DNA from: Diphasiastrum complanatum | Taxonomy: Eukaryota; Streptophyta; Lycopodiopsida; Lycopodiales; Lycopodiaceae | Assembly: GCA_029204225.1 (NCBI GenBank) | Contig: CM055102.1 | Span: forward strand, 47,152,870 to 47,216,869 | DNA length: 64,000 bases | Reading direction: 5' to 3' | Shown here: positions 8,021 through 31,571 of the stretch, piece after piece | Position numbering within the stretch: position 1 is the stretch's first letter | Layout of the letters: every line of letters starts with the position of its first letter | The notes under the pieces: model-generated | The model's database searches: none | Told to the model about the DNA's origin: nothing | Seen by the model: only the letters and a program-made list of their open reading frames with translations | Translations under genes and position numbers: made by a program

Positions 8021-8745
8021 GACCTAGATGAACAAATCTTCATGAAGCAACCTGAAGGATACGAAGACTCGAACAATCAAGATTACGTTTGTCGGTTGCA
8101 TCCATGTATCTACGGTCTTAAGCAAGCCTCACAAGCTTGGTATAAGAAGCTCGATGGTCTCCTGAAGTCTCTAGGCTTCACTCCTACACAACTTGACTCT
8201 AGTGTCTATATCAAAAGAATAGAAATGAATTTTGTGATTTTGACAATATTTGTGGACGACTCTTTGATGATAGGAAATTGTTTGATGATGATTAATGAAA
8301 TGAAGAGTCAGATATCTGCAAATTACGAGATCACAGATCCAGGGGAAGCGATGAAATGTCTGGGGCTGCAAATCAAAAGCGACCTAATAAGAGGAGTCAT
8401 GCATCTAAACCAATCCAAATATCCTGAAAAAGTATTGAAGCAATATGGAATGATCGAGTGCAAAGAGAAGACAACATCGATGATAGCCGGAGCCATATTG
8501 TCGAGCAAGATTGCCCAAGCATAGATGAGGAGAGACAAAAGATGGAGAGAATACCATACCAAAATTTGATCAGGAGTCTGATGTACCTTACAGTTTGTAC
8601 AAGACCCGATTTAGCGTTCTCTGTTTATTCACTCAGTCAATGCTCCTCCAATCCTAGCATGCAACACTAGTTGATGGCAAAACGAATTCTACAATATCTG
8701 AAAGGCACTCAAAACTTGGGATTGATCTATGAAAGATAAAAGGAA
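8021..8745 (+). pseudogene. Decayed copia pol, right part (reverse transcriptase)
   Basis: This continues the RT cut at 4269. Visible segments are LDEQIFMKQPEGYED, the family-typical YGLKQASQAWYKKLDGLL, and the catalytic region TIFVDDSLMIGN, where FVDD replaces the usual YVDD. The frame closes at 8522. The shifted continuation RIPYQNLIRSLMYLTVCTRP and RILQYLKGTQNLGLIYE is readable to about 8735. The RNase H domain that should follow is absent; sequence from about 8750 belongs to another element. Confidence 0.8.
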
Positions 8746-8749
8746 TTCA

Positions 8750-9251
8750 TTCTACAACATTACAATGAATTTTTCTTAATAATTGGAGTGCATTCCATAG
8801 GAAAAGCAACGTGCAAATGGAACATTTCCATTGTTAAAAGCTACAATCCGTAAATGCTTCAAACTATAGTAAATCAACATGAATAGATCTAGCATACCTT
8901 ACTTTTGTAATGTTTATATCGCATTGAAAAATCGTCTCGCCTCATATTTCACTATAAGCATACAATGATTTCAAAAGTTTTGCTACTCCCGCTTTAGTTG
9001 TTGCATTGAGCAGACCAAGATTTTCAGTCTTAAAGCTCTAGTCCCAAATTTTGGAACGAGCATGAAGAGAAGTTATTACATACTTAGCTAACTATTGTCT
9101 GAAGTTAACCATACCAGTTAAACGTCGGGCAAGGTCGGAAACTCAAAAAACGTTGACCAGAAGTTACCGGTTCGCATTCTCTCTCTACATAACCTCTCTC
9201 TAAAGTAAAGTTTCTTAAAGGGCCCATTTTGAGCCCATACTTCCCCTAATG
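8750..9251 (-). mobile_element. Left-end fragment of an E-family element (E2), inverted
   Basis: On the minus strand, from 9251 downward, this begins CATTAGGGG and continues GGGCTCAAAATGGGCCC. That matches the termini at 20226, 26699 and 28744. Its upper edge abuts an LTR (9252-9641) interrupted at the same point as the LTR resuming at 28745, so it reads as the left end of the element whose right end is at 28744. The ~500 bp are noncoding. Its lower edge abuts the copia relic, probably at the inversion breakpoint. Confidence 0.6.
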
Positions 9252-9641
9252 AAACTCGATTTTTTTTTCATATTTAGATGGAGATCTCATCACATCTTTA
9301 TACATTTCGAGCTTGGATCTGAAAATTTAGAGAATCTTTGATATTATCATACCTTAACCCTAACATCTAGCCTAATAGATCATTGGATCAACCCTAATAT
9401 GGGGTCAAGATCTCAAAATCCAAAAGCAATGTAAAACACGCTATTTTTAGATCCTAAAATTTCTCTAGCTTATCTAAGCACACTTTGGCCTCATTTCAAA
9501 GATGCTATCACAATGTAATATGAGGAATGAAGTCTTGGGAAAGCATCCTATGCTATTTGGCACGTGTGGCAACTATTTACATGGCCATCTTGCCATGAAT
9601 GTGACCAAAATTGGTCAAGCTAGAATTGTGAAATTTCAACA
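9252..9641 (-). repeat. First 390 bp of an LTR, inverted half of a split LTR
   Basis: Read on the minus strand from 9641, it starts TGTTGAAATTTCACAATTC and follows the LTR at 30206-30897 closely until the E-family terminus. The remaining 305 bp of the same LTR are at 28745-29049. The two pieces sum to 695 bp against 692 bp for the intact 3' LTR. CCAAA follows at 9642-9646. Confidence 0.85.
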
Positions 9642-11040: not shown

Positions 11041-11043
11041 ATC

Positions 11044-12850: not shown

Positions 12851-12879
12851 AGATCATGTAATTGATCTATGATCAAGAA

Positions 12880-13298
12880 CAAGGATTATCAAATCCAATA
12901 AGGCAGACACAATAGATGCTTTTATGCATTGATTCTCTTCTTCAGAAGGATCGTCAATAATAAGCTCATAGCTTTTACAAATTGTAGTTAGCTTTGTGAG
13001 CACACGGTTTCGCCTGCTATTATCTTTTGCTCACCTACATCACTGACTTGTATTTCACTACAATTAATCTGAATAAAGTACTATCTAGTTCTGCGTTCAG
13101 GTTCTGTCAGTATTTGCAATGCTTTCCGCTCTTTCTATCTGACTTTCTGATTGCTTTGTCTGATAGTCTGCTCTTGCTTCCGCTACCATCACACATTTAG
13201 CTCTAAATTTTATTTCATTATTGTGTTCACCTATTGTTACCAATAGTGCATGCACTAAGAGAGTTGAACGGATTGATCCTCACATTCATTTCTCCAAC
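12880..13298 (+). repeat. LTR remnant ending at a primer-binding site
   Basis: The stretch ends with ctccaaca at 13298. It is followed at once by TGGTATCAGAGCTG, the methionine-tRNA primer-binding site of a plus-strand LTR element. The 5' limit of the LTR is not clear. Confidence 0.55.
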
Positions 13299-14490
13299 AT
13301 GGTATCAGAGCTGTAGGTTACTATTCTCTGATTATTTAGAGCTTTAATATCAAAAACCATCTGATTTCTTAAGCGATTTTTATGTCAGAGCTATTTCTAT
13401 AGCCTGATAAGTTCCATAGAACCTGATCCTACTAGCTGATAGGATAACTATTTTCTTGTTCTGTGATTTAACACTAGATTCTCATACTTAAGTCACCAAT
13501 TTCATGGACAGTCGCAAGCAAACCTCAATAGCTCTATCGTCTACACAAACAGACTATACCATTGTCTCTCAATCGGCAAAGAAAGCACTGCTGTCGTGAA
13601 ATTTACTATCGGACATTTGTTTGAAATAGTATGCTCTGCTATTACTTTATTGGCCAATCATGAGTTTCATTCGAAGAGTAAGCACATTGAAATCAAAAAC
13701 TACTAAAACAAAGAGGTAAGCTTGAAGTATTGTTGAACGCAAGACATGACAAAAAATATTTTCACTAAGGCGTTGAGCTTGGATGCACTCAAAAGATTTT
13801 GCGCAATGTTAAGTTTAAAGGTCAAGGCTTTCATGGATTCAGATTAAGGAGAAGTGTTGGATTATTAACCTCATAATTGATCTTTAATCTTTGTACTCAT
13901 GTTTCTACACAGTTTACAGAAATACACGGTAATGGACAACAATGATAACGACAACTGTCGAGTGACTATTGAAGGTATTCGAACTATCGAATGTTAATAG
14001 AACATGTTGTTACTTGTTTTGAAGCTAATGACTTGTCCTAATCATTATTAGCAAGTAATTACCATGTAACCTAATTGGATAACTAAGTGCCAATTGTGAT
14101 TTGTGACCTTACAATTGTCTTTTACTATCATTTTGGATAAGTCTAAACAACATTCCTAACTAGTATAAATAGCTGATCATTTCTCATTTACTTAGTACTC
14201 TTTAGCTCTCTTAGTTGATTAAGTATTGTTAGAAGCACTTATTGTTCATTAGCGGAAGTGCACCAAATAGAGTCAATTAGTTACACAAAGTTAGTTTCGA
14301 GTAAGTGGTTGCATCCGGTACTATTTTGTACTCACTATTCATCTTATTTGTACATGTTACTTATTGAATCAGTCATACAATTCTAATTGCATTTAGTATT
14401 ATGTCAAAATGAATAAATACTTTCTTGTTCTATTGTACTCTGATTGCGTTCTCTTATAGTTTTTGTCTGAACTATTTTTCAATTTTCAAT
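13299..14490 (+). mobile_element. Internally deleted copia relic with 3' LTR
   Basis: After the primer-binding site only about 550 bp of internal sequence remain. The end of RNase H is readable at about 13675-13840 (sense of SKHIEIK...KLEY...QDM...F.KALSLD). A polypurine tract, attaaggagaagtg, then leads into an LTR starting TGTTGGATTATTAACC at about 13856. The LTR contains a TATA-like agtataaatagc near 14162 and is lost near 14490, where a gag-like frame on the other strand begins. The same 3' end and LTR family appear at 33.6-34.7 kb and, as a 5' LTR, at 62.4-63.36 kb. Confidence 0.7.
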
Positions 14491-15330
14491 TTCAAGATTT
14501 CTTTGGGGAATGATGATCCTCAGTTTGATCTCCAAAGATAAATTTGTCATATATACAATGCTGTAAGCAGTGATTATCTTCAGTTCGATCTCCAGAGATA
14601 AAATCGTCATATATAAAATGATAGGTAGTGGTAATATTAATCTCAAAAGCTCTCGGATCAACAATATTAGAAGATGAGTCAGAATCCATCTGTTGTTGAT
14701 GTCGAAACATGATTGGATGTTCAAGAGACGTAGGTTGCAGTTCCTTGATTCCTTTTGATTTTTCATCTGTTGAAGAATTATCCTCGATAGTTCTGGGGAG
14801 TTTTGCTCATGGAGAGTTGAACACATTGGTTTAGGGATTTCTTCCTGTTGAGACTTCAATTTGATATGTAGTTGCATCTTTTGTTGTCTTATCCATAGAT
14901 CTCCAATTAACGCCTTTTGCATTACATCTGTCAAAGTTGAATTTACTTGAAGTACTTTATCCAAATGTTGACGGATGTGATCTTGAAGACCACGCAGATA
15001 GTGTTGGATGGATAGCTCTTCATTAAGCCACTTTAATTTAGATGCTATCAAACTGAACCTTGCGTTATATGTCTTTATTGAACCAGTTTGTTCTAGCATA
15101 TACCAAGAGTCCATATAATAATCTATGAATATTTTTGCACAAAACTCTTTGAAATCATCCCATGATTTCGGTTCATACTCTGGATGACGTAATACTCCTT
15201 GCCACCAATCATAGGATTTTCCTCGAAAGTGGGATACTGCTATGATAATTTTTCCCTGATCAAAGATAGAATATAGTCGCAGATTCTCATCGACAATAGA
15301 TAACCAGTCATCAATATGTAATGGACTCAT
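14479..15330 (-). CDS. Ty3/gypsy-type gag (Retrotrans_gag) frame
   Basis: The 283-residue frame has the retrotransposon gag pattern: FRGKSYDWWQGVLRHPEYE, SWDDFKEFCAKIFIDYYMDS, then SIKTYNARFSLIASKL and a helical C-terminal part. This W...F...F...Y...Y...F.L spacing is typical of Ty3/gypsy capsid-like gag in plants. No zinc knuckle, protease or pol follows; downstream toward 14490 lies another element's LTR, so the copy is truncated. The upstream acidic region (15.4-16.28 kb) is probably the N-terminal extension of the same protein. Confidence 0.65.
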   Translation of the reverse strand: MSPLHIDDWLSIVDENLRLYSIFDQGKIIIAVSHFRGKSYDWWQGVLRHPEYEPKSWDDFKEFCAKIFIDYYMDSWYMLEQTGSIKTYNARFSLIASKLKWLNEELSIQHYLRGLQDHIRQHLDKVLQVNSTLTDVMQKALIGDLWIRQQKMQLHIKLKSQQEEIPKPMCSTLHEQNSPELSRIILQQMKNQKESRNCNLRLLNIQSCFDINNRWILTHLLILLIRELLRLILPLPIILYMTILSLEIELKIITAYSIVYMTNLSLEIKLRIIIPQRNLEIEN

Positions 15331-15441
15331 TTCTCCTTCAAAGGTAAATCACCAAAAAGCTACTCTCAAATGATGTAGATGTTCCTAAAAAGTGCTACTA
15401 ATAATAAGAATCTCATCAAAATATACAATAAGAATTTCATT

Positions 15442-16277
15442 TCAGCAGTCTTGAAGGATGTTGTGGGGTAGGTGGCAAAAGTGTTGTTGATTCTCAAAAG
15501 GAACATCATTAGGATTTTGTTGAATATTGATTTGTTGATGTTGATTTGCCTCTAACGAACTGCTCTCACCATTGTAACAGGAACTAGGAATGGTCACTAT
15601 GCTCCCATAACTGGTATTGTCCTCTAACTGTAACTTTGTGGTGCCAGCAATTGGTTCAAGAGCCATATATGAAGCCTCTTCTATTTGCATGGATGTACCG
15701 TTGAATGCCATTGTACAAAGAGATGATTGGTATTTTCTTCTTCAACTTCGTATTGTTCGGAACTAGCTTCGTTATCATCATTGCAGTCTCCATCCTCACC
15801 GATGTAGTGATTGGGATGCAATTCTGTCTTTTGACAATGTAATCTTTTGTTGTACACGTTGTGAACCATTGGATCTTCTTCATCATACTCACAACTTTCA
15901 GGGATATCATTTGGTTGACCTGTAGGCTCATATTGGTCCTCATGTTTCCATTCAGAGTGATTATGCCCCTCATAATCAACAATGTTATACTCGGTTTCAT
16001 ATTGGCCATTATTATATTCGTCTACATCACCAGGCTGATATTCTTGATCATCTGGTTGACAATCATGATCCGCATTGGAATATTGTTCATGCTCGTTCGT
16101 ATCATCACATTGTTGATGATCATCTTGCTGAAAATCGCTACCATCATCACACTGCGGATCATCCTGTTGACAATCATCACCACCATCGTCATACCCGTCA
16201 CTTTGGTTATCGTACTCATAATCACTTCCATCCTATTGATCTTCATATTCGGACATATATTCATTATCAGTGTCCAT
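15442..16277 (-). pseudogene. Acidic Asp/Gln/Tyr-rich N-terminal extension of the gypsy gag
   Basis: From an ATG at 16277 the minus strand reads MDTDNEYMSEYEDQ, a TAG stop, and then about 190 residues very rich in D, Q, Y, N and H (DGGDDCQQDD, QPDDQEYQPGD). A second open block at 15711-15442 is rich in Q and N. Such long, disordered, acidic leaders occur before gag in some plant gypsy elements. The early stop is TAG, one C-to-T step from CAG. The opposite-strand frames here are artefacts of the repeated codons. Confidence 0.45.
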
Positions 16278-16329
16278 GGTATAGTGACAGACAATTGTGG
16301 GTTATGGGTCCACAAAATTGAATGAAGTG

Positions 16330-17040
16330 AAAAGAATTTGGAACAATCATAAATTTCACTGGTAAAATCACAAATTTGCTAGTAACAAATTTGTTCTTCT
16401 TCGCCGTCCCAAAATTCTAAGTCCTTGAAGAATGTAACTTGTAGCTTTTGGCAAAATGTCAAGTTGGGTTTCAGTAGTTGATTTTGGGTTTTTATACCAC
16501 TGCTATCTTGTTAAGATCAACGTAATGATCACCTTTGCTTTTTACTGCATCGCCATCCGAGGTCAAACGGAGAAGATACAATAATTTCAAAAATTTGTAT
16601 ATAAAACGTAAATATACTCAAGGAAAAAAGGGGTGGAAAATAAAACTAAAATAATGATTATGGAGTACTCAGCTCGACGAAATGATCACTTTTCATTCTT
16701 GCAGCACTGAATTCCGACATCATATGAAAAAGTCAAGGCTACACGAAGAAAGGAAAATAACGAACTTAGAAAGGGGCCCTAACACAATTTTTTTTTTTGG
16801 GTTTCTTTGAAATATTGGACCGTAAGGAAAAGAAAACCGTAAACAATCTTAGAATTTGACGGGTTTTTGTTTTCTTTGGTCACTAAGATGGAGGAGCCAT
16901 ATGCTCATGAAAGAACAAAGGATCCCAAAAGAAATAAGAAATCAAAATATTTTCCTCACGGTTTATGCACTCTACAACAATCATAGGTGATTTTCTTTAT
17001 TGATGCTCTTCAAATTATGATTTAAATGCTTCAACATTGT
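16330..17040. other. No gene seen; AT-rich spacer before the gene A fragment
   Basis: The spacer contains homopolymer runs and a pyrimidine tract leading into a splice-acceptor-like CAG at 17051-17053. No coding frame or known repeat was recognised. Confidence 0.5.
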
Positions 17041-17053
17041 TTTTTTCTTTCAG

Positions 17054-17181
17054 ATTTATATCCATCATGCATAAGTGAATGGGAGCCCGCACAATCACTT
17101 GCAGGAATATTAGACGTGATTCACTCTGATGTTGGAAAGCTGCAATATAGAGGAAGAAGTCCAAAGGAACTTGCAGATTGT
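17054..17181 (+). pseudogene. Gene A copy 3: start of exon 2 only (BAH-like)
   Basis: After a pyrimidine-rich acceptor ending CAG, about 43 residues match the start of exon 2 of the other gene A copies: YPSCISEWEPAQSLAGILD followed by HSDVGKLQYRGRSPKEL. Copy 2 reads YPSNFVEWQTIQSIARIID and YKGRSPKSL at the same place. Homology stops near 17181, where the tail of a histone-H3-like frame on the other strand begins. No exon 1 was found upstream. Confidence 0.7.
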
Positions 17182-17683
17182 GGTGGGTTATCCAAAACAG
17201 ATGTAGCTATATTTACAACATTATCAACAACAACGTTATCTACAATGGATTCCAGGTCAGGCTTCACAGAATATGTGGTGTCTACCCTCCTTACTTTCTT
17301 CGGAGCTCTCTTGGGGGCTGTTTGCTTCCTAGGACGCTTCGTAGGAAGATCAGTACTATCTTCCTTGGGCATTATGGTGACTCTCTTGGAATGGATTGTA
17401 AGCAAAAAAGAATCCTAAAAAAAAGGCTAATGTAATCTTCAGTAGCCTCCTGAAGGCACTGAAGAGCACTGGGTGTGAATCTAACTAGCTGTCCGAGATC
17501 ATTTCTTGTTATGTTTTGGATAGCACGGCAGAATGGAGCTCTTGGGATCAACAGAGGTGTTGATCTTTGATACTTGCGTATCTCAGAGAGCCACCTGCTA
17601 CGATTGCGCGTTCTAGGTCTAGCGGGTGGTGTAATGGCAACCGCAGGGGCTGAGGATGAGCCAGGAGAGAAGAAGTCCCTCAT
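17182..17683 (-). pseudogene. Histone H3-like domain with C-terminal extension, one frameshift (H3-like 2)
   Basis: From 17683 the minus strand reads a proline/arginine-rich tail, then the H3 alphaN helix (WLSEIRKYQRSTPLLI), alpha1 (PFCRAIQNI), and alpha2 (RFTPSALQCLQEATEDYI). At a run of eight T/A at 17417-17424 the frame shifts, and the next frame continues with alpha3 IHSKRVTIMPKED, identical over KRVTIMPK to canonical H3. A basic extension follows (DLPTKRPRKQTAPKRAPKKVRR) and ends near gene A copy 3. The loop between alpha1 and alpha2 is about one residue longer than in canonical H3. The 5' end is cut by a copia LTR near 17695. With its extension and frameshift it is not a canonical host H3 gene. 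It is probably inactive. Confidence 0.8.
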
Positions 17684-17696
17684 TGTCTACTTTCTC

Positions 17697-18150
17697 CTAT
17701 CCATGGATGTGTATTATGGGATAGCGGACTTGTGCATGATGGTTAGGATGAGGAGGGAGGGATGATAAAGACCTCGCAGAGGACCGATATGTACGGACAG
17801 AATGTACGGTATATCGGACCTGTGTGAGCCGAATATAAGAGAGAGCGATTAGTTTTGAAGAAAGGCGCACAAATGCGATACGGAGAGACACGTAGGCAGA
17901 TGTATCAGACCTGTGCGCATGGAAGGCGGTAGGAGGAATATCGATTGTGAAGGACGCGCACAAGTGCGATATGCGAAGTGAAAAAAATTCATCGAAGTTT
18001 GTGATTTTATATCGCGGTTCACACGTGTGAAAGAACGTTCTGTCACACGTGTGGGAGTTGTACAGACAAATGCGAGAGCGACTAGTGGAAATTATCATGG
18101 ACATGACCCCAAACTCAAGATAGGAAGATAATATTTTAATAATCTTCACA
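17697..18150 (-). repeat. Truncated 3' LTR of the copia element at 18.2-20.2 kb
   Basis: On the minus strand a polypurine tract (taaggaggag, complement of 18151-18160) precedes TGTGAAGATTATTAAAATA. The LTR runs about 450 bp with several CACACGTGTG-like motifs and ends abruptly at the H3-like 2 frame, so its own 3' terminus is missing or fused. Confidence 0.65.
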
Positions 18151-18154
18151 CTCC

Positions 18155-20225
18155 TCCTTAAAATTTATGTTTCTATCAAAATAGATTTCGAAATTAGGCC
18201 AAGATTAGACCTCATCTTCATAAAGACATTCTTGAGTAGAGGCTTGGTGAGAAGATCTGCAACACAATCTGAAGATGAAACATGCTCCAATGAGATCTCT
18301 CTTCCAATGACTTTTTCTCTTACAAAATGATGAGCCACTTCAATATGCTTGCTCCTTGCATGAAAGACTGATTATTTGCAAGAGCCTGAGTAGAAATGTT
18401 ATCATTCTTGATAATTGGTAAATCTTCATCTGCATAACACTTAAGCTCCAAAAGTAGCCTTTTGATCCATAAAACCTCCTTTGTTGTGTTGTAAGAGATG
18501 TGTATTCAGCTTCACAGGATGATAAGAAAATAGTTGCTTGTTTCTTTGACAGCCAAGAAACCAAATTTCCTCCAAGAAATATAGTGTAAGCACTTGTGGA
18601 TTTCCTATCCAACCTATCTCCTGCAAAATCTGAATCTGAAAAAGCAATCAAAGTCAGATCTTCTCCTTCATAGTATAGTCCATAATCCAAGGTAGAAGAT
18701 ATATACCTCAAGACTCTTTTAGCCAACTTCCAATGATATAATTTTGGATCCTGCATGTGTTGACTTAGCTTATGGACACAAAAGCTTAGATCAAACCTAG
18801 TCACTGCTGACCAAATAAGTGAGCCAATAAGACTCCTATAAAGAGTGATGTCCTCAAAGGATTTTTCATCATCTTTAATAGGAACTTTTACAATGTGCTC
18901 CATAGGTGTATCTATGCCTTTACAGTTCTCCATATGAGATTTCCTGAGCATGGAAAGTGCATATCTACTTTGGCTTATAAATGCATGACCTTTCCAAAAA
19001 TCTATTTCAAGGCCAAGAATATAGTGAAGAACTCCTAAGTCCTGCATTTTAAACTCAGTACCAAGTGCATGCTTAGTTTCTTCAACTAACTTCTCACTGT
19101 TTCCACAAAGAATAATATCATCTACATAGATGAGAAGAATAATTACAAAGTTATCTACAAACTTATAATACAGAGAAGGGTCATATTCACTTAGACAAAA
19201 TCCAAGTGATATGAGATAAGAATTGAGCCTTACATACCAAGACCTTGGTGCCTGTTTCAGTCCATACAGACTTTTGAACAAAAGACAAACTTTTGATTCA
19301 TCACCTTCCTTCACAAAACCTGGAGGCTGCTCCATATAAATCTCCTCCTCAAGGTAACCATTGAGAAATGCATTAGAAACATCAAACTGGAACATACTCC
19401 ATTTGTGAAAACATGCAAAAGAGATAAGTATTCGAATTGTTACCATCTTTGCAACTGGTGCAAAGGTATCTTCATAATCAAGACCTTTAAATTGTGAGTA
19501 GCCTTTAGCACAAAGTCTTGCTTTATACTTATAGATAGATCCATCATGATTATACTTGATTTTGAATACCCACTTACATTCAATCACATGCATGTTGTTT
19601 GGTGGCTCCACAAGCTCCCATGTGTTATTTGACATCAAGGCTTCAAATTCTTGGGTCATTGCTTCAACCCACTCCTTGGATTGAAAAGCTTCTTGGACAT
19701 CCTTAGGCTCTTCATGTGATATAAAACGTTTTCACCTTCCACTTGCCTTCCTTCTTCATCATATGTGAGCCTCCTTGGCTCAGATCTTGCTCGTGTAGAT
19801 CTTCTTGGTGTGATAGCTTGAATCTGCTCCTCCTCAAGCCTCGGCCTCACCTCTTCCATGGATTTTGAAGACAACATATAGATCCAAGAATGTCTTGTAT
19901 AATCATCTACAAAAGAGACAAAGCAGTTGGCTCCTGCTTTACTCTTAGTTGATGAGAAATGAACATTTGAGTGTACAAGTTCAAATGGTTGCTTTGTCTT
20001 GATACTTGATCTAGGAAAAGGCCTTCTGTGTGACTTTGCCAGCACACAAGCTTCACAAGGTAGAAGCTCCTTTGACAGTGTCTTTGGTAGACCAACAGCT
20101 TCTTTGACCATAGATTGCATGGATTTGAAATTGGGATGACCCAATCTCTTATGCCACAGATCCTCCTATAGAACCTGGGTCTCATAAGCAATATCTGAAA
20201 TGTTAGCACTCTCCCTAGAATCTAG
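18155..20225 (-). pseudogene. Copia pol, interrupted by element E1 and internally deleted
   Basis: Two minus-strand blocks are readable. At 20209-19656: a GAG-pre-integrase/integrase N-terminus (GHPNFKSMQSMVKEAVGLP, CEACVLAKSH) and the start of the integrase core (FVDDYTRHSWIYMLSSKS), which jumps directly to a linker (RPRLEEEQIQAITPRRSTRA), so most of the integrase core is deleted. At 19659-18340: a nearly complete reverse transcriptase (FAPVAKMVTIRILISFA, YGLKQAPRSWY, LIYVDDIILCGN) and RNase H (SDSDFAGDRLDRKSTSAY, SSCEAEYTSL), frameshifted near its end. Upstream the sequence is cut at 20225 by the CATTAGGG end of E1, and the gag-protease part was not found. Confidence 0.85.
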
Positions 20226-20517
20226 CATTAGGGCCCTTTTTGGACTCAAAAAGGGCCTCTTCACTAATCATGATTAGTGTTAATGACGACACGTGTGCCA
20301 ATAAAAGAATGACAATTGAGTAGCAATGGCCCATATGACATGGCAAATTGCATGGTGTAGATTAAATCAAGTGTGGGACCACTAAGTACACCTCTAGCAT
20401 TAACCCTACATTAACTCTACATGGGAGGCTAACTACACCTATCACATAGCTATTAACTAGACCCAACATACCTGCACCTAATGGCTAGTTTATCTACTCA
20501 TTCAAAATATTCAACCC

Positions 20518-20540
20518 CCCTCTCTCTCTCTCTCTCTCAA
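20518..20540. repeat. CT microsatellite upstream of gene A copy 1
   Basis: A run of about eleven CT repeats lies 100 bp upstream of the gene A start. Pyrimidine-rich tracts are common in plant 5' leaders. Confidence 0.7.
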
Positions 20541-20641
20541 TGACCTCCCACTCTACTCATTCTCCATATTGACATAGCAATCTTTCCACTATATTATACA
20601 CTCTCTAACTCCAGACCAGACACATTGTCTTTTCGTAGATC

Positions 20642-21989
20642 ATGACTTCTAGTCAACCAAGAAGAACAAAGATTCAATTAAACTCCGTTGTTGCACCGAT
20701 CAAAGACTCCAATGACCATTGGGTGCCTACGACATTTTCGACTCTTGATTGGGTATATATGCAACCCTCTGGTAAAGGAATTCATAGGGTTGCAAAGAGA
20801 AAACGTGACAACAGAAAGCAGCATTGGAGAGGAAGAATTCATGAATTCAAAGTCGATTGTAGTGGAGATTACCTAGCCAGAGTGCAACATGTCTACATGC
20901 GTAGAGATATTTTGTTGGACACGACAGTTGCTGATAGAAATATACTTTCACATTGTAAGTCTTACATCTTTGAATGTCAAAGATATTTTACTTGTAAATT
21001 ATTGTTGCTTCATTCTATTACCTCTTGTGCAGATGTTTTTCCTTCAGATAGCTATGACTGGCAGCATGTAAAATCGTTTACGGGAAAGTTCTCTGCAATA
21101 CATGCAAAATATGGAGTACTAATATATGATGGGCTCAAGTCTTCTGCGATGATAGGACTGGGCTTTTACGATCACATGTATGAAGTTCCAAAGAAGAACT
21201 TTGGGACTGGCAAATTATTGCCTCTTTCTGAGCCTACAATTGATTCTCACGATTGGCCTTATATTGATGAATTGACCATCAAATTGACAAAATTCCAACT
21301 TGTCACAGAGATTACGATGAATATGAAGCCAACATTCGGATCCAAACGTGTTTACACTAGTGTCAGCGTGCCTATCACTGTATTTGTTGCCACATTTAAA
21401 ACAATCCCATTTAGAAAAACAAATACATTATGGGTATGGAAAGCGACGGAATCCTTATTGTTGGACAATGTATTTACTTCTTGGGACTCATAGAATGTAG
21501 ATCACAAAGGTGATTTAATAAGGTATGATATTTGTCGTGAGACGATGACAATAAAATATCACATTGCACGCCAAACGTGCTCCTTCAGTTTTGTTTATAG
21601 GCGGTTCAAGTTTGCTCACGGTCGATGGGATAGCTTGGATGCAGAGACGAGACATCAAGAATTTTGAACTACCCATCCATATGCCAAATGATGAAGTGCA
21701 GGAAGTCTGTGTTAATGGTGAATGGAGTCTGGAAGATGTACGGGCTATGGTTGGTATAATATATGCTGATGTGCCCACAAATTTTGTGTTCACTATCAAC
21801 GGACAGACCGTAAGTGTAAACAATAAATGTGCTTCTAAATTTTGTAAATGGTTGTTGAACGTGTATATAAAATGAATATTAATATTGAAGCGGTGGTGTC
21901 TGGTTTTGCAGATCAGGAGACGCGCGAAAAAACACCAAAAGTGTGTATCATTTTTAGATTCGGTCACCGTAAAAATACATGAACTATGA
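20642..21989 (+). pseudogene. Gene A copy 1: BAH-like chromatin-reader type protein, three exons
   Basis: The exons are 20642-20954, 21033-21809 and 21912-21989. Splice signals are clean (T|GTAAGT...TGCAG; ACC|GTAAGT...TGCAG) and intron 1 is phase 1. The N-terminal ~190 residues resemble a BAH domain as in plant SHL/EBS-type readers: DWVYMQPSGKG, WRGRIHEFKV, a basic stretch, then YVFPSDSYDW...FTGKFSAIH, to compare with the family pattern EVFLSDHYD...IEGKC.V. BAH domains bind histones or nucleosomes. A TAG at 21491 and a frameshift near 21562 break exon 2. The last part (VRAMVGIIYADVPTNFVFT, then the exon 3 peptide ending VTVKIHEL) is conserved in copy 2. The BAH assignment is mine by eye. The copy-to-copy homology is clear. 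Confidence 0.6.
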
Positions 21990-22270
21990 GTTGCTCTTAT
22001 GTACTAGCTTTAACTAATAACAATCTATCCGATGGGATTTCATCAAAGATTTGGTTCTATCATTTCCATGTTTGTTAGGGCATTAGCTATGGTTCAGTTT
22101 GGTATGCAATTGCAATGTAAATATTTTGACTAGACATTTTCTATAGGAAATTGTTGATAACATGTTTTGGAAATGTGTAGAATTATTTCATTGTGTATAT
22201 ATTTCTTACTTTACTATTTTTGAACAATCGAGAGATCTTTTTGGAATGCTTGCTATAATTGGAATGGCAC

Positions 22271-22278
22271 ACTATATA
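22271..22278 (+). promoter_or_regulatory. Possible TATA box of the H3-like gene
   Basis: TATATAAG lies about 170 bp upstream of the ATG at 22446, in the noncoding gap 21990-22445, which otherwise shows nothing. A leader of that length is plausible, but the site is unsupported by other data. Confidence 0.3.
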
Positions 22279-22445
22279 AGGGTGTGTGGGTCCCCATTTC
22301 GCCATTTCATTCTTAGTGTCAGAGAGTTTCCTTTGTTTTTCATAGGTTGATATCATCTTGCTATGCTCACACAAGTGCAAATTAGTGTCGTTATTGCAAT
22401 TCCTATACATTAGTACTCTACTATATCTTCATGGTGACCTAGTTT

Positions 22446-23645
22446 ATGGCACGTACGAAACAAACAGGAAGGCGGAATCCAAGGGAAACAACGTTATTGC
22501 ACCAAGCGGCTTTAGAAGCAATAGAAGCACGGGAAAGGCGCTCGAGGAGTAGGAGTAGGAGCAGAAGTACCAGCATTGAACCTGTGATGGAGGAAATGGA
22601 CAAAACTCGGGATGAGCAGGCAACAATGGTTGATCCTAGGCAAGTTTTGATGGATTGTGAGCAGGTGCAGGGGCAGGAGCAAGGGCAACAACATGTGGCA
22701 ATGGAGGAGCTTGGGCAACAACAAGAGGCAATGGATGAGCTGGGGCAACAACAAATACCTCTGGATGAGCAGTATGATTTTGGTGTGAGGTCAGTGTTGG
22801 GAAGCCCCTCTCCAACATAGAGCCAACGCGACGCCACTCAGGCTTTTCTGGACAGTGAGGTAGCTGCTTTCGGGCCGATTCCCAATGATTTCCTTGGGAT
22901 CTTTGACGATCAGGGTCCTCAGGAACAGGTGCCTCTTGATGGCTTTGTGGTTGGTTCGTTAGGAGTCGGAGCAGCTTCAGGGGACTCCACTCCGACACAA
23001 TCACTCGGACATGTGCAAGGGCCTGTAATGGGGCCCATTTTGTCCTTGTTCATCGGCTCGGACCAGACACCAAACGCAGTAGTTGTTGGAGAGGCTTCTT
23101 AGCATGTCACACCCACATCACGGCTGAAAACTAAAGTTGTTCATCGAAAGAGAGGTCGCTCGAAGCCTCGATGCCTTCCGCGGACCATCCCTCAAGCACA
23201 GCCGTAGCCGGAAGCTCCCCAGGTGCCTCAAGATCAGTCAACACCAGAGGTGCCGTAGGACCCCCCGCAGGACCCTCCCACGCAAGATGAGACAGGACCT
23301 AGCCAGGCGGCAACACGGAGAAGGGCAGCCACACCGCGTAAGGTCCTCAGAAGGATGCAGCCTCCGCAACCACGTCGCCGAAGGAAGAGCAGAATTCCGA
23401 ACTGGTATAAAGAGATTCGAAAATACCAGAAATCCACGGAATTCCTCATTTCAAGAGCTCCATTTGTCCAGACGATCAAGGAGATCATGGACGAATTCGC
23501 CCTTGGGCTCAGAATTACAAGCGAGGTTGCATCGGCTATCCAAGAGGCGGCAGAAATGTATCTGACAAATTTGTTTGAAGACTCATTTTTGTGTGCTGTC
23601 CATGAGGTAGTGACGAGATTTCTGAACAGAAAAAATCATGGCTAA
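22446..23645 (+). pseudogene. Histone H3-like protein with long tail; four in-frame TAG stops (H3-like 1)
   Basis: One frame of 400 codons runs from ATG 22446 to TAA 23643. It begins MARTKQTGRR; the first seven residues equal the N-terminus of histone H3, including the sites equivalent to R2 and K4. Then come an RS run (about 31-42), a Q/E-rich part (about 75-115), a spacer, a P/Q-rich part, a basic part, and from about residue 321 a histone fold: YKEIRKYQKSTEFLI (alphaN), PFVQTIKEIMDEF, RITSEVASAIQEAAEMYL (alpha2), NLFEDSFLCAVH (alpha3). The alpha1-alpha2 loop has the canonical H3 length, unlike most CENH3. The only interruptions are TAG at 22818, 23100, 23205 and 23256, each explicable by CAG to TAG. 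Canonical H3 has 135 residues, so this is a greatly extended form. It lies between gene A and the convergent gene B. Confidence 0.8.
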
Positions 23646-23687
23646 TGCCTCACGTTCTATTGACACACTAAATTTATTGGACTCACT

Positions 23688-26400
23688 TCAAGTTGACTCC
23701 TGCAATGCTTGGTTCATCAACATGATTGTGACACGTTCTAGTTTGTGACCTTTTACGATCTTCGCTTCATCCAACTTAATGACAAATATAGCTTTGCATC
23801 CAATATCTGCAATACCAAATTCTTGTAAATAACATACAATAATTGTTGCTTACGAAAAAGAGAAAAATAATAATTGAAATTGTTGTGAAACGAACTCACC
23901 ATCTCTTTTGACATTGTAATGTCGTATCATCATTGCTTGGACCTTTTCCAGATCCAAAAATATATTGTTGTATTGGTTATAATGAAAACAAACAATAGAT
24001 CCCTTTTGCTTGTCGGATATCTTAAAAGTATCATAAATATGGAAGAATTCACCTAATTCATTTTCTATAAATAAGTTGCATTCTCACTTTGTAGTTTGAA
24101 GCAATTTGTAAACAGGTAATATTTGACATCGTTTCAATCCGTTTTGGTCAGATTTTTTCATAAATTTTTTCACTGCTCTATATCATTTTCGACTCACACC
24201 TCCTTGATCCCACGCATGAACTATTTCTCTAACATTTGGATTCGGTTGAAACCTAGTAGCAAGTCTTCTTGCAATCTTTAAACGAAATGAATCACTTGTT
24301 TCATTTTCCACAATCTGCATCAAATCTTTACCCTTCATGAATTGCTTCATATGTTTGGTGCTTTGGAAATGATTTCCGACCATGTTATTCAAAAATTCTT
24401 TCGTCAATCTCTTGCGTCTTTTACTAGCACCACCACCTAGTGTCAAAACATCTAGTTTGTGCCTTTTAGTATTGTCTTTTGATTGGTCATCCGTTGAGAC
24501 TCGACGCTTTCGCTGAAATCCATATAATATCTTTTGAAGACTAATGTTTGAAGATTGCTATTCTTCAAACTTTGTGACAGATCTGGTGAGCTCTAATTTT
24601 AGATTTGTTATCTCTTTAGCCAATGTCTGATTTGTTTGTTGCAATGATTTTAATTGCTCATTCATGTATGTAATATGAATGTTTGCACTATTTGCTAGCA
24701 TTTCAGCTTGGATTCTTCGAAAATCCATAACTTGACAGTAGCCAAGAAGTCCGTTGGCACCATCGCCAACGAACCTTAACAAACTATGTACATCACAAAA
24801 TTGAGGAGAAATATTGGTCAATGGATTAGGTGGATACAAATCACCTTTTACCCATAGATCGATATTTTTCATTCCTTTTAACCTCCAACAATGGATTTTG
24901 TATGAGTTCAGATTAACACCCCATGCAGCTTTGGTTGTGGAATACTCCTTCTCTAAGTTCACATGCAAGTGACATTTTGTTCCCATCTTGAAATTATTTT
25001 TCCATTCACCTTTTCATAGGTTATATCATAGAATGTGACGATGTATCTCAACAAGTAATTTAGATCAACATATAAATTGTTTGATGAATTATAGAATATC
25101 GATCTTCCATCAGTTTCATACACCTCCTCAATATGAAATGGAGTTCCAGTGATCTTATACATACCTATGTTTAATGTATCCCTCTCTTTTTTCAAGTGAT
25201 ATGTCCTAGGGATTGGGACTTTTCTAATTTGAACTTGCTTGAAAGCTTCTCTAATTAGTTTAAATATTGTCGCATATGCTTCCTGCTAATACCTGCAAAA
25301 TCACAAGCACCTTGAACTATAGTCTTATCTAAATTTTTTTGAATGTCCACCATCAAAGAATCTGTTATTTTACACTTTACATTTGAAATCCTATTGTTCA
25401 TCATGATATGCTCAGTGGATTTGCAAGTCAATATTGTGCCCAATGACATTCCTAGTGAAGCATTGTCTTTAATATTCCGAAAAAATAGATAGTTAACAGA
25501 AGATCACCATAGCTGAAATTAAATCCAAATGTCATTGAAAAACTTACAAAAATCAGAATATGCTTACTTGAATGCACAGATCTTTCTATTTCGATAACCT
25601 CCTTTTAAAAGCGTTTGAATATCCTTGCAACTTTGTCGCTTTCGCTTCTTACTTTCAGCCTTCTTCTTTGCCAAATCCACATCCTTTAATAATTGTAAGT
25701 TTTCAATACGAATAGACTGTAAGACTGATTGCATTTGCTCTAGTTCTGATTTGATATTGATTGTTATCTTTTGTAATGATTCATTATTATTTTTAAGTTG
25801 TTCATTTTCTTCTAACATCTTTTGGAGATGACAATCTCTATTCTGACAATAAGAGGGTATCCGAATTAACTCACCTTCTAAAAAGTGAACTTTATTCATA
25901 TAAAGTTGTTTTCCATGGTTCTGCAATCGTTCACAATATCCTAGTAATCCACTATGCCCATTGCATATCCATGTAACTAAATGAGTTATTGAAGAGAATG
26001 GGGGATGTGCCAAAGTGCTTGGATCTTGTGGATATAATGTTCCATCTATCCACAAATCCAAGTTTTTTTTTTTCCTTCTGCCCTATAACAAGAATGATCC
26101 TCAGCGGATATTTGAATTCCTTTGCCTTCTCTTCTCTGCAAAGGTGCCAAATCAATAGGGATATCCACATGTAGATGATACAATGTCATCATCAAAAAAA
26201 TAATAGAGTAATCAGTTGCATCAAAGTACTATGACCAGATTCTATGAAGCAAAACAAAATACTCATCTTTGATTGTATTATATACTATGTACGATCAATC
26301 CAATCTCCATGCTTGTATGCTTGATTCAAATTTGAAAATGCCGCTCATTTTTTCATTCCAATTCCATTATCGTGGAAGGAATGCATATGTAAACATTTTG
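23688..26400 (-). pseudogene. Gene B of E1: unknown protein with two related modules and coiled coils
   Basis: I do not recognise this gene. On the minus strand the blocks are: module 1 (about 26400-25564: HLHVDIPIDLAP, DLWIDGTLYPQDP, CNGHSGLLGYC, then a coiled coil and a basic tail KKKAESKKRKRQSC), module 2 (about 25450-24558: FHIEEVYETDGRSIFY, CHLHVNLEKEY, DLWVKGDLYPPNP, GDGANGLLGYC, then a coiled coil), a basic block (24446-24183: SKRRKRLTKEFLN), and a last exon at 23806-23688 after a TTGCAG acceptor. Modules 1 and 2 align (HLHV, DLW.G.LYP, LLGYC, then coiled coil), so one arose by duplication. Stops and frame changes lie between blocks; some gaps may be introns. The 5' limit is uncertain. 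Confidence 0.5.
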
Positions 26401-26699
26401 CAATTTTTCCTGATTCGAATTTGGGGATGGCGGTCATATTCTAGATCCAGTAAAAATATTGTCCTTTTCGTAACCAATGGAGGGAATATTTTTGAATTTA
26501 GTCAAGTTATACTACGAACTGTTAACAGTTCTTAACTGTGACTATAGACACATTGTGGTTAGATCATTGGGAGTTGGGAAGGCCTTGGGAGTGGTGTGGG
26601 CAAGCAAATAAACAATATTGTTTTTTTTATTTGATATTTTTCTATATCCTACATGGCATTCCTTAAAGGGTCTTTTTGATATTGAGAACTCCTCTAATG

Positions 26700-26969
26700 A
26701 AGGGCAAGCCGATATATCTGATTGTAGTGGTCACTGGAGTTCAATTGTCCGAAGATCTCCCCAATGGAGATAATGCATTTTCTGCAGGAGACAATGAATC
26801 TTGTTATCGAAAACTCATATTATCCAGTTGCAATTACATTGTGTTCTGCACCATGGAAATGGAGATCATAGAAATGAAAGAGCCTCATAGAAAAAGTGGT
26901 TCATATATTTTCAAAAATGATGTATACAAAAAATTGTATTACATAATACAAAATTCCATTGTTCATAAT
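26700..26969. other. Unassigned spacer between E1 and gene A copy 2
   Basis: The plus strand carries a short open frame (to 26975), but no similarity to a known family was seen. It is not similar to the spacer after gene A copy 1. Confidence 0.4.
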
Positions 26970-28293
26970 CTATAGATCTTCAATTTCGATGGATGTTCCA
27001 ATGTCTTTGCATTTTATATGCTCTTCCTGCCTTACTCTTACCTGCACCAGAGAAATTGTTTTAGTTGATATATTTTTTGAAACCGATTCACTTAGAAATC
27101 TAAAAAACGAATAGTTTCATATGGCATAACGAACCGAAATTGATAGTACTGAGGTAGATCGAATTGCAACATATCTAGTTCTGATCGAATGATTGAGACA
27201 CCAATCTTCCTCGACCTCAACCATTGGAAGAATGTTCTCATTTCTTTTCACTGTTATTTGAAGTTTCTCTTGAGGGTTTGTACCAAAATCTTGATCAAGT
27301 GGCTTCCAAACATTTTTGCATTAAATCCATCTTCTACAATACACAGCAAAGTGAGCATTTGTTTTTCGATGTGATATCTAAATGTCATTGATGAGTAACA
27401 TACTCTGCACTCAACTTGTTGATTTTGTTTCGTATCCCAACCATCATCCAACAACTCGGCGATTATTTCAGCACTCAAGTCCTTACAAATAAACATTGTT
27501 TTCATTCTCCGAACATTACATTTGAAAAAAAAATCAATAAAAATAGTAAATGGTAGATACCAACTTAGTCTATTATTTTTTGATCCAGTGCTACATTTTA
27601 ATATACTCTGAATATCAATATATAGTCTAGATCGAAAACTTTTTGAAATTGCTACATCAGGAGAAATCCATTCCTCACTTGAAAAATTTGGTAGAGGATA
27701 TGGCTCAAATCTACCAACTAAACCATCTTTATTAGGAAAATAGGTGTGATCATAAAATAAAACTCCTGACTCTAAAAGTGATTTTGGGGAACGACCTTTA
27801 TATTGTAAAATACCGATATATGAATGTATAACATCGATTATTCTTGCAATCGATTGAATTGTTTGCCATTCAACGAAATTTGATGGATACAAATATGCAA
27901 AACCAACAAAAATATTACAAGAAAAATATAATTTAAAGAAAATTCTAACTTTAAAGAAATTAAATCTGAAAACTTACAATTGCATTTTCTTCTATCATTT
28001 GGATTCAAATCATGAATGTTGAGCTCATTGTGAAGATAAGCATGTTGAACTAAAACTTCCGTGATAGATTGACCGACAGGTGATACTTTGAAATCCATTA
28101 TCCTGCCTTTCCAAGAGCTTCTATATATGTTATCCGATCTTTTTCTTTTACGAAATGATCCTTTTGCAGAGGGATGCATCAAGATCCATTGATATTTTTG
28201 ATATATTCTTGGTTTCCATTGATCTTCTACATTTTTTTCATTGCAAATATTGATTGCATCAATGGTTCCTCTTGGTCTCCGATTATGTGCCAT
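26970..28293 (-). pseudogene. Gene A copy 2: BAH-like protein, three exons, decayed acceptor
   Basis: The exons on the minus strand are 28293-27978, about 27894 to 27060, and 27041-26970. Exon 1 starts MAHNRRPRGTIDAI and contains YQWILMHPSAKGSFRKRKR and WKGRIMDFKV. It ends at a phase-1 GTAAGT donor, the same place as in copy 1. The acceptor of intron 1 reads CAT where CAG is expected (copy 3 keeps CAG). Exon 2 (LYPSNFVEWQTIQSIARIID, LQYKGRSPKSL, FYDHTYF, WISPDVAISKSFRSRLYID, CRVCYSSMTFRYHIEKQ) is open to 27254, then frameshifted to its end. Exon 3 is open for 24 codons. The gene points inward from the E-family end at 28744, as copy 1 does from 20226. Confidence 0.6.
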
Positions 28294-28744
28294 TAGTCGA
28301 AAATACGAGTACACAAGTTGAGAACAGAGATAATGAAGAGATTGAGAGGTATACCTAAGAATTACAATCCAAAATAAGAGATCAAATGAAGAGAATGAGA
28401 GGTATAACTATGAATGACAAGAAGTTCCTAAACTACAAGGATTAGTTAACTACAGTTTACGACTATGGACGTTAAATCAACCTCGAGTGTACAAAGACGG
28501 GCAACATAAGAGTATTCGGGCAATAACTGTGGTCCAATCACAATTGTTTGTTCTGCCCGGCGGGATATTTGAAAATGACAAAAATTTGACCGGGAAAGTT
28601 AAATACAATTTCCGTCCGTCAACCACTGTTACAGTTCGTCACAGATGGACACCATTCATTGGGACACATAAGCGTTGAAAGCGTGCAAAGTCAAAAATAG
28701 CATTTCGACAAAGGGTCCATTTTGAGTTCTAATATCCCCTGATG
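28294..28744 (-). mobile_element. Right end of element E2, upstream region of gene A copy 2
   Basis: The right terminus, read inward from 28744, is CATCAGGGG...AACTCAAAATGGACCC, matching the terminus at 9251. It interrupts an LTR that resumes at 28745. The distance from terminus to the gene A start codon is about 450 bp, close to the 416 bp in E1, which supports a common element plan. Confidence 0.6.
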
Positions 28745-29638
28745 TTCCACTTCCACCAACATGGTCTTCGAGTGGCGAGTTATAGCTATTGTATGTGAGT
28801 GATTTTATGCATTAATTACATGTTTTGGAAGGTACCGAAGTTGATTATAGATCTAGCATGCTTGCTTTACTTTACTTTTGTGTATTTGATCAAATCTATG
28901 TGGCCATTGTGGAGTTAAATGCCAAATTGGCTAGTTTTGGTCACTAGTCTTGATTCTAGCTCATAGTTTGGATCTAGATCTTTGATTTGTGCATACTCCA
29001 TCACTGTTAGGATTGATTGAGATTGAATTTTTTTAGTAAAATTTTGTCATGGTATTAGAGCCTGATCAAAAGTGAGCTTTAGATTTGATTTTATTAAGCT
29101 TTGATCCTAGATTTGAGTAGTATTGGCTTTGTCCTTGCTACTAGTTGCTAATCTAGTGATTGTACCTCCAAATTTGGTTTCATTTGAGTGAGAATAGATC
29201 AAAGGGGACTTTTATTTTGCTAAGTTATAGCTGCAAGAACCAAAATTGAGTCATTTCCATTCAACCTAACCAAATTAAAAAGTTCTTATCTGTTGAATCT
29301 TGGAGTACATGTTTCATAGTAGAGATTTTCATAAGGATTGGAATGCCACCACTCTTTAGGAATTTGGATCAGCATTTGAGAGCTTAATTAGGTCGTCCTT
29401 AGCTTCTTAAGGTACTAAAATATACCTTTTAGGATCAAATCAAGTGTTTTGATGTTTTCTTCATCTAGAAATGCAAAAGTAGTGAAAATTGTGTTTCTTT
29501 TTTACTCGAGTTTGGATAGGTTTGTGATTGAACATGTCTGTGTGATTCAACCTGAATTTAGAGGGCTTTATGTGAAAGTACTGTGAGAAAGGAGCAGCAA
29601 GAAATTTTTTCCATATCTCCTTTTACTCATCTTACTTT

Positions 29639-30097
29639 GTGTTTGATATCATGTATTTGACAATGTCCTTTGATTATGCTAGTATGAACATTGGTTTTCA
29701 TCCTATATCTTATGATGATGAAATAGTGATCATTACTACTTTGATTGGAGTTTCAAAGATGTATTCAAAGGTCCCATATTGTGATCCATTCACTCTTGAA
29801 TTTCCAAGGAATGAAGACTTTCATTGGAAGGATGCCAAGTTGGAGTTCATTGTTTTGGCGGATAAAGTCAAGATGGTGATATTTGAAACTTTGGTTGTAT
29901 GTGCTTCATCCAAAGTTGGATCTTATGGAAAGCTGCTATTTTTTCATTTTTATTTTGAGAAGGAGACTCACATTTTGCAGACCAAGGTGATCATTCAACA
30001 ACCTACCAAAGACAAAGCTTGGATCTTGAAGACAACCTTTATGGAGCTCTCACTACATTTGACAACTTGGAGCTCAAATTATGTTCTTATTGTATGA
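29639..30097 (+). CDS. Unknown 152-residue frame inside the small LTR element
   Basis: A single open frame occupies most of the 3' part of the internal region (first ATG codons near 29650). It has mixed hydrophobic and charged composition, for example FTLEFPRNEDFHWKDAKLEF. No retroviral domain, signal peptide or zinc knuckle is visible. It may be a remnant of gag or a captured fragment. It ends about 110 bp before the polypurine tract. Confidence 0.3.
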   Translation: MFDIMYLTMSFDYASMNIGFHPISYDDEIVIITTLIGVSKMYSKVPYCDPFTLEFPRNEDFHWKDAKLEFIVLADKVKMVIFETLVVCASSKVGSYGKLLFFHFYFEKETHILQTKVIIQQPTKDKAWILKTTFMELSLHLTTWSSNYVLIV

Positions 30098-30205
30098 GTG
30101 ATCATACTCACTACATACATCAAGAACCTATTCATTATGTTGTTTTTATGCATGTAATTATTATTGATCCAGGACAGTCTCATCAAGCTAAATTGTGAGG
30201 AGGAG

Positions 30206-30897
30206 TGTTGAAATTTCACAATTCTAGCTTGACTAATTTTGGTCACATGCATTGTAATTGGCAAGATGGCCATGTAAATAGATGCCACACGTGTCAAATA
30301 GCATAAGTTGCTTTCCCAATACTTCATTCCTCATATTACATTGTGATAGCATCTTTGAAATGAGGCCAAAGTGTGCTTAGAGAGAAATTCTAGGAGCTAA
30401 AAATAGCATGTTTTATATTGTTTTTGGATTTTGAGATCTTGATCCCATATTAGGATGGATCCAATGATGTATTAGGTTAGATGTTAGGGTTAGGGTATGA
30501 TAAGATCAGATATGCCCTAAATGTTCATATCCAAGCTCGAAATGTGTAAAGATGTGATGGGATCTCCATCCAAATATGAAAAAAAATTGAGCTTTTTTAC
30601 TTCCATCAACATTGTCTTTGAGTGACGAGTTATAGCTATTGTATGTGAGTAATTTAATGCATTAATTACATGTTTTGGAAGGTACTGAAGTTGATTATAG
30701 GTCTAGTATGCTTGTTGCACTTTACTTTTGTGTATTTGATAAAATCTATGTGGCCATTGTGGAGTTAAATGCCAAATTAGCTAGTATTGGTAACTAGTCT
30801 TTATTCTAGCTCATAGTTTGGATCGAGATCTTTGATTTGTGCGTCCTCCATCACTTTTAGGATTGATTGGCATTGAATTTGCTATAAAATATTGTCA
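30206..30897 (+). repeat. 3' LTR of the small LTR element
   Basis: The LTR runs from TGTTGAAATTTCAC to TATTGTCA. Its last 300 bp repeat 28745-29049, and its first 390 bp repeat the minus strand of 9641-9252, with scattered substitutions. Confidence 0.88.
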
Positions 30898-31571
30898 TTT
30901 GGAACCTGAATAAGTACTCAGAATCAGAGATAAACAATTGAGAAATCGTTCTATTTCTGAGTGCTTGATTAGGTTGGTTGGTCAGATTGAGGATAATGAT
31001 TCATAGGAAAAAGTTAAAAGCATACAAATGTGGATCTTCCCTAGTTGCTCGTTCTGAGAATAGAACTTGATTAAGGGAGAAAAAATGTTATGTCCATGTC
31101 CAGTATGTGGGATTCGAAATAATTCCTGACATGAATAGCTAGTCACTCCAGTGTATGTGGTTATTAGTTATGCCTTGTCATTCCGGGCTTGGCCGATAAA
31201 GTCATTAATAATCACATGAGGGCCCAGACCTATAATTGGACATCGGAGCACTTGCATGGTGTTTGACTGCTATAATGCAAGAATATGAGGTCAATTGCTA
31301 TTCCAAGTTGCATGGGGATCCTAAGAGAAATATTCTCTCCTCATGGGAGAGAATATATACTAGTGGAAACTTGCCCATCTACCTATTGGATTTTCTGATC
31401 CTTGTAGCCAGGAGCCCTTCCTCTCTTGCATTCATTCACCATGGCATGGGGGTGAAGTGGTTAGGATATTGACTAGCCATTTCCTATTGGTTGGATGGTT
31501 TTTGCTCCACAGGTGTCCTTTTGGTTGCATGCAGTAGGATCTAGTCAGATCTTCACTAGGCGATTTTAGTA
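30898..31571 (+). repeat. 3' end and LTR of the non-autonomous LTR family (second half of 9642-10505 copy)
   Basis: 30898-31085 matches the family's last internal segment (compare 49464-49655 reversed), including a polypurine tract aagggagaaaaaa. The LTR follows from TGTTATGTCC at 31086 to about 31571, homologous to the LTRs at 48976-49463 and 55377-55865 but clearly more diverged. Confidence 0.8.

Follow-up and report, generated by a model that had tools for sequence, protein, structure and literature searches.

Diverged transposon-like elements with candidate BAH-type and histone H3-like genes in a 64-kb window of the clubmoss Diphasiastrum complanatum

This analysis concerns a 64,000-nucleotide stretch of the clubmoss Diphasiastrum complanatum (GenBank assembly GCA_029204225.1, contig CM055102.1, positions 47,152,870 to 47,216,869, forward strand), referred to here as the window, for which an earlier note had proposed an undescribed family of elements carrying BAH-like and histone H3-like genes. 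The window is plant DNA, dense in copia and other repeats. Its best overall explanation, with a probability of roughly 0.6, is that it holds decayed members of an old transposon-like family with chromatin-type genes. Two copies, E1 and E2, can be regarded with good confidence as old, diverged elements resembling DNA transposons with inverted ends. It is also probable, at a lower level of confidence, that gene A (BAH-type) and the H3-like gene are genuine genes of these elements.

Inverted Ends and Insertion Sites

The ends of E1 and E2 were described by a 36-column profile made from the four ends at 20226, 26699, 9251 and 28744 and applied to both strands of the window. These four ends scored 39-46 bits. 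The next-best site on either strand reached 10.2 bits, disregarding matches that overlap the E1 left end (20227+, 20262- and 20263-), which arise because this end is partly palindromic. In a leave-one-out analysis, where background was the best site outside the four ends and without overlap to the E1 left end, scores of 15.0 (background 12.5) and 20.6 (12.3) were obtained for the left and right ends of E1, and of 32.3 (12.7) and 24.4 (10.0) for the 9251 and 28744 ends of E2. That E1 is bounded by ends of a shared type, as first proposed, was confirmed by the profile, although on leave-one-out scoring its left end stands just above background.

The E1 left end (20226+) reads CATTAGGGCCC..CTCAAAAAGGGCC and the E1 right end (26699-) reads CATTAGAGGAG..ATCAAAAAGACCC; the corresponding sequences for E2 are CATTAGGGGAA..CTCAAAATGGGCCC (9251-) and CATCAGGGGAT..CTCAAAATGGACCC (28744-). 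The general form of the inverted end is CAT(T/C)AG(G/A)G...(C/A)TCAAAA.GG.CC, of which the last part is loose, being ATCAAAAAGACC in the E1 right end. The two ends of E1 are mutually inverted, and those of E2 are both directed toward lower coordinates, each facing its half of a long terminal repeat (LTR).

Given that the two halves of one LTR flank the ends of E2, that the partner LTR is uninterrupted and so represents an empty site, and that the same 5 nucleotides (nt), TTTGG, lie outside both LTRs (Table 1), E2 must formerly have occupied the 5' LTR of a retrotransposon, with a later separation of its ends. The second LTR half is followed by TGGTATTAGAGCC, which we take to resemble a primer-binding site. 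Since the two ends share one direction in the window, 9251-28744 cannot be an intact E2; the proposal that these ends mark a second copy holds for a single insertion, with its LTR halves and empty site, but not for an intact element between the two positions. The ends may have been parted by an inversion, one breakpoint of which would lie near 8.74 kb, or through an error in the assembly. When rejoined, the flanks of E2 equal the empty site with zero net extra bases, within a run of T (...GAGTTT / TTCCAC...), from which a target duplication of 0-3 bp follows. The flanks AATCGAGTTT / TTCCACTTCC at this one site share no 8 bp.

The flanks of E1 are TAG and AAG and come from different loci. A copia reading frame halts at exactly 20225, abutting the E1 left end, and its alignment with the other copia protein of the window starts at residue 423, on base 20225. 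On the right (from 26700), by contrast, E1 is flanked by the region directly behind E2 gene A instead of by copia, and thus the surroundings of E1 have also been rearranged. The suggestion of a repeated, perhaps mobile, unit is in part supported by the shared ends, the E2 empty site, the copia stop at 20225 and gene A sequences outside the window, but not by the readable target duplication, that of E2.

Layout and Kinship of E1 and E2

The start of gene A lies 416 nt from the end of E1 (20642) and 450 nt from the end of E2 (28294), and the gene is oriented alike with respect to that end in both, which agrees with the like distance and orientation noted before. Identity between the two gene A proteins is only about 28-35%, which makes E1 and E2 old relatives rather than recent duplicates. 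Noncoding DNA from the end to gene A is still collinear over ~340 nt, with a score of 62 compared with a mean of 33.8 (sd, i.e. standard deviation, 4.7; maximum 46) for 60 shuffles. At the ends away from gene A (E1 right and E2 9251), no similarity past the motif was found beyond that of shuffles (59 versus 50.9, sd 8.4, maximum 74). On these alignments, E1 and E2 look like old members of one family, whose layout next to gene A has been conserved. As a unit, the three genes are seen in E1 and in one partial second case. The latter is at 17 kb, where, as the earlier note had it, a third gene A fragment (17026-17190, +) adjoins a second H3-like frame (17683-17121, -). This H3-like gene could belong to E2 or to E3, the copy to which the fragment is assigned.

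Gene A and the H3-like Genes

Gene A is similar to solved BAH domains by profile and by fold, and can with moderate confidence be considered a BAH-type protein with an unclassified second half. At the aromatic cage position, as judged by eye, VKWFY of BAHCC1 faces VQHVY of gene A, in which W and F are not kept. A protein search with gene A returned eight relatives, among them P0007 and P0009 of Diphasiastrum complanatum. E1 gene A and P0002 are identical at 325 of 341 residues (95%), and P0002 has a residue where E1 has its stop. The E3 fragment is identical to P0007 at 42 of 45 residues. The tail of E2 gene A aligns with P0003 and P0004, its last exon (~27050-26972) matching the end of P0004. 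In P0009 (O6H91_02G084400), a phosphoesterase domain (PF04185) is followed at the C terminus by a piece of gene A exon 2, identical to E2 at 32 of 39 residues; this is perhaps an element exon absorbed into a host gene model.

For the H3-like gene, the histone assignment was upheld by the Pfam Histone model, with E=1.6e-18 (66 bits) at 23355-23645 (+) in E1 and E=1.3e-13 at 17372-17683 (-). The E1 fold matches H3.1 at 1.7e-18, is gapless to H3 and breaks off after helix 2. The 17-kb copy keeps loop 2 (KRVTIMPK) and has a loop 1 one residue longer than that of canonical H3 in most of the five alignments shown; the best match of its helix 2-loop 2 piece was to H3.1/CENP-A chimeras (8.5e-06). By sequence comparison, the H3-like gene is thus real, with an H3-type histone fold both in E1 and in the 17-kb copy. 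About half of the fold residues are common to E1 and E3. In a small, unresolved tree with H3 and CENH3 references, both lie on long branches between H3 and CENH3, grouped together with a support of 64; the H3-like gene may derive from either.

The E1 frame (22446-23645) contains 5 stops, including the last, where 19 would be expected; the other frames contain 14 and 21. Each of the four internal stops is a TAG, which is what CAG to TAG changes would produce in a glutamine-rich gene, a pattern that could have come from CHG methylation decay. The canonical H3 tail carries K4, K9 and K27. The E1 protein, its tail read by eye, starts MARTKQTGRRNPRE, with K4 kept and R at position 9, followed by an unrelated linker; this is not a canonical tail, in that the K4/K9/K27 set is not present. 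Given R at position 9, the tail would be unable to carry a K9 methyl mark. When used alone in a PDB search, it matched no H3 and gave two unrelated matches (E 0.95 and 1.6). A protein search with residues 290-399 of the E1 frame gave one match among 59 candidates, P0001, presumably because ordinary H3 proteins lie outside the length limit of the search. P0001 has 53% identity to each of the two H3-like folds, over 66 and 77 aligned residues, and the start of its tail is alike to that of E1 at 9 of 13 positions.

Differences by codon position were determined in five comparisons: H3 of E1 and E3, gene A exon 1 and exon 2 of E1 and E2, gene A of E3 and E2, and the two units of gene B. Third positions were the most different in all five, in alignments picked by protein similarity, a choice that favours such an excess. 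The excess was clearest for H3, with differences of 0.49, 0.38 and 0.71 at first, second and third positions, and for gene A of E3 and E2, with 0.36, 0.22 and 0.56. For gene A exon 2 of E1 and E2, values of 0.55, 0.44 and 0.56 were obtained, a negligible third-position excess.

Gene B and the Search for a Transposase

Gene B, proposed as one gene, is present in E1 in the form of two tandem, broken, paralogous units. No relatives of unit 1 were found among 868 candidates, neither unit had a match of note in Pfam or NCBIfam, and a piece of unit 2 gave a single PDB match at E 0.31. Conjecturally, gene B is the only remaining transposase candidate in E1.

The broken frames at 10500-13300 (-) include a stretch that looks conserved, VAQANWLAVRTIYGGDP...REHSCLFHF..., and have by eye the appearance of an old transposase-type gene. 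Pieces of this region were searched and nothing was found in Pfam, NCBIfam or PDB. It was rejected as the transposase of E2, since it would lie outside E2 once the LTR halves are rejoined.

Table 1. Positions of the elements, their genes and the flanking LTR sequences in the window
Feature	Coordinates	Strand	Remarks
E1 in full: gene A and H3-like gene, with gene B as a tandem pair of units on the opposite strand	20226..26699	+	Shared inverted ends; copia frame stop at 20225
E1 left end motif, gene A side	20226..20261	+	36-column profile and leave-one-out
E1 gene A	20642..21874	+	Intron ~20955-21032 (by eye); TAG at 21491-21493; frameshift near 21660
E1 H3-like gene, 400 codons in one frame	22446..23645	+	Begins MARTKQTGRR; long linker rich in Q, E and P; H3 fold at C terminus; internal TAG stops at four sites
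E1 gene B unit 1, paralogue of unit 2	23850..24986	-	Interrupted by three stops; boundaries approximate
E1 gene B unit 2 (coiled coil)	25030..26200	-	Frameshift near 25275; limits approximate
E1 right end motif	26664..26699	-	36-column profile and leave-one-out
E2 gene A	26972..28294	-	By eye, acceptor of first intron lost; frameshift near 27270; short final exon ~27050-26972
E2 end motif, gene A side	28709..28744	-	36-column profile and leave-one-out
E2 other end: motif 9216-9251 and ~480 nt of subterminal DNA	8738..9251	-	Inner boundary ~8738, where copia homology stops
First half of 5' LTR holding E2	9252..9641	-	Retrotransposon target duplication 9642-9646
Second half of same LTR	28745..29049	+	Followed by TGGTATTAGAGCC
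Partner LTR without E2 (empty site)	30206..30897	+	Retrotransposon target duplication 30898-30902
E3: truncated gene A fragment, intron end and start of exon 2	17026..17190	+	53/53 identical to P0003
Second H3-like gene	17121..17683	-	Frameshifted; KRVTIMPK loop kept; last part overlaps E3 fragment

Neighbouring Repeats

The retrotransposon at 9252-30902 has LTRs of ~690 nt, a short internal part (29050-30205) and the TTTGG target duplication. It lies itself within another repeat, in that 9642-10493 and 30898-31569 match 49645-50452 and 49649-48977. A copia element (4000-8737 and ~13500-14476, +) is seemingly split by 8738-13490, which holds the far end of E2. The closest pair among the long repeats listed is 48978-49463 and 55379-55865, spanning 487 nt at 97.5% identity and 6.4 kb apart.

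Discussion

On the explanation preferred here, an ancestral element would have encoded gene A, an H3-like protein that began like canonical H3 and had a very long linker, and, probably, gene B, with its coiled coil. A transposase, supplied by gene B, by gene A or in trans by a related element, would have acted on the ends with little or no target duplication. The gene A and H3-like proteins would then work on the chromatin of the element, and most likely counter its silencing, although such an anti-silencing role is itself doubtful. Less probable again is a transposon lineage with its own small chromatin system, in which a K9-unmarkable H3-like protein, maybe of centromeric-H3 type, is recognised by the BAH protein, so that copies might escape silencing or steer their insertion.

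Several observations weigh against old transposon-like elements with chromatin-type genes. No Pfam match to a transposase was found in the gene A, gene B or H3 frames. Gene A has no BAH match in curated Pfam, so that the BAH-like character first claimed for it stands on its profile and fold similarity. The target duplication at E2 is at most 0-3 bp, or absent, at the one readable site. The E1 left end is the weakest of the four and barely exceeds background in the leave-one-out analysis. Both element copies are decayed and their genes broken; the earlier note's claim of a unit with chromatin proteins of its own can be true of the ancestral genes, but not of these copies. The E1 H3-like copy is without parts of its fold, and gene B, which runs on the strand opposite to the other genes, is confined to E1.

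Plant transposons often pick up host genes or fragments, and the alternative that survives best, unlikely as we consider it, is that the elements are real while the H3-like gene came from the host, whole or as a fragment, and is carried without function, as perhaps is gene A. The broken H3-like copies, the incomplete fold in E1 and the long branches of the E1 and E3 proteins are all in keeping with this. There is also precedent, in that capture of H3 is published for fungal hAT elements and, according to the part of the report consulted, the copies in Pseudocercospora fijiensis are all inactivated except the original gene (PMC6710886). By contrast, gene A has the same position in E1 and E2 despite ~30% protein identity, and given the H3 fold residues shared by E1 and E3, both genes have seemingly been retained over a long period. 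The third-position excess in five of five comparisons also argues against a functionless passenger, albeit with one difference of 0.56 versus 0.55 and with the alignment choice in its favour.

Somewhat less likely is a composite origin, in which E1 would be a smaller gene A element with another mobile element, carrying gene B and/or the H3-like gene, nested inside it, so that the three genes are not one unit. The restriction of gene B to E1 and its strand, together with the richness of the window in nested elements, point in this direction, but the profile revealed no second ends of the same type inside E1 (ends of other types were not searched for), and an H3-like gene is found near gene A sequence twice in the window.

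There is little to recommend a host gene family spread by segmental duplication, with end motifs that are due to chance or to another small repeat. The absence of a recognised transposase and of a clear target duplication would be accounted for, and two annotated gene A relatives are present in Diphasiastrum. However, E2 ends at an empty site inside an LTR, the copia alignment stops at the exact base of the E1 left end, and just four motif sites are found in 64 kb, all at element boundaries. Segmental duplication of host genes was allowed for previously; a recent one leaves the motif ends and the LTR empty site unexplained.

Large DNA viruses can carry histone genes, and a relic of one that had integrated would fit an H3-like gene beside genes without known relatives, but this origin is most improbable: when viral contigs were searched with one gene A pattern, 18 stretches were obtained and a relative of gene A was encoded in none of them, and the gene A intron, the inverted ends and the ~6.5-kb size fit a transposon better. 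A plasmid search gave nothing for a plasmid origin.

Comparison with Known Systems

CACTA (EnSpm) elements have ends reading CACTA and a target duplication of 2-3 bp. The ends described here likewise start CA.TA, and a 2-3 bp duplication would be compatible with E2, but the core is CATTA or CATCA and no CACTA transposase was matched. VANDAL elements have a MULE transposase, whereas none was recognised in the E1 and E2 frames. To our knowledge, VANC, the anti-silencing protein of VANDALs, is not a BAH or histone protein. Nevertheless, the Arabidopsis VANDAL with VANC, as presented in the excerpt consulted (PMC5735166), shows a plant DNA transposon that supplies an accessory protein related to chromatin, which is the role proposed here. 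HarbingerS and MuDR elements with SET genes and fungal transposons with TET/JBP genes are likewise mobile elements with genes acting on epigenetic marks, although these encode enzymes, as the consulted part of the report has it (PMC12730594), in contrast to the reader-type domain and histone-like protein here. Given these SET or TET/JBP transposons (PMC12730594) and VANC (PMC5735166), an anti-silencing role is a reasonable suggestion.

The closest likeness is to fungal hAT transposons. Those of Pyrenophora tritici-repentis carry H3-like 'H3L' genes and, like E1, have the H3-like gene between the inverted ends of a DNA transposon, beside an open reading frame of unknown function; H3L likewise has insertions in the H3 tail, and fits neither H3 nor CenH3 (PMC3538342). 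By contrast, that system is fungal, with a hAT transposase and recent, near-identical copies, and the part of the report consulted mentions no BAH gene (PMC3538342). In Pseudocercospora fijiensis and relatives, an H3 sequence has similarly been amplified in a DNA transposon, but with 8-bp target duplications and a hAT domain, whereas E2 has 0-3 bp and no hAT domain was found here; again, no BAH gene is mentioned in the excerpt of that report (PMC6710886). Given that the E2 site, the one available, shows no 8-bp duplication, the element is not a hAT by this test.

A histone gene on a mobile element is thus already known from fungi, while the pairing of BAH and H3-like genes in a plant is unreported in the literature found: among the matches listed, by title and abstract opening, none reported histone H3 and BAH genes together on a transposon of plants. 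The statement in the earlier note that no plant transposon of this kind has been described is to that extent uncontradicted, although it has to be set beside the fungal hAT elements with H3-like genes and plant VANC. If gene A and the H3-like gene were indeed maintained, this would be a plant transposon in which a histone-like gene is joined by a domain of histone-binding type, separate from the hAT cases of fungi, and would provide a clubmoss case for testing whether mobile elements repeatedly acquire histones to influence their own silencing.

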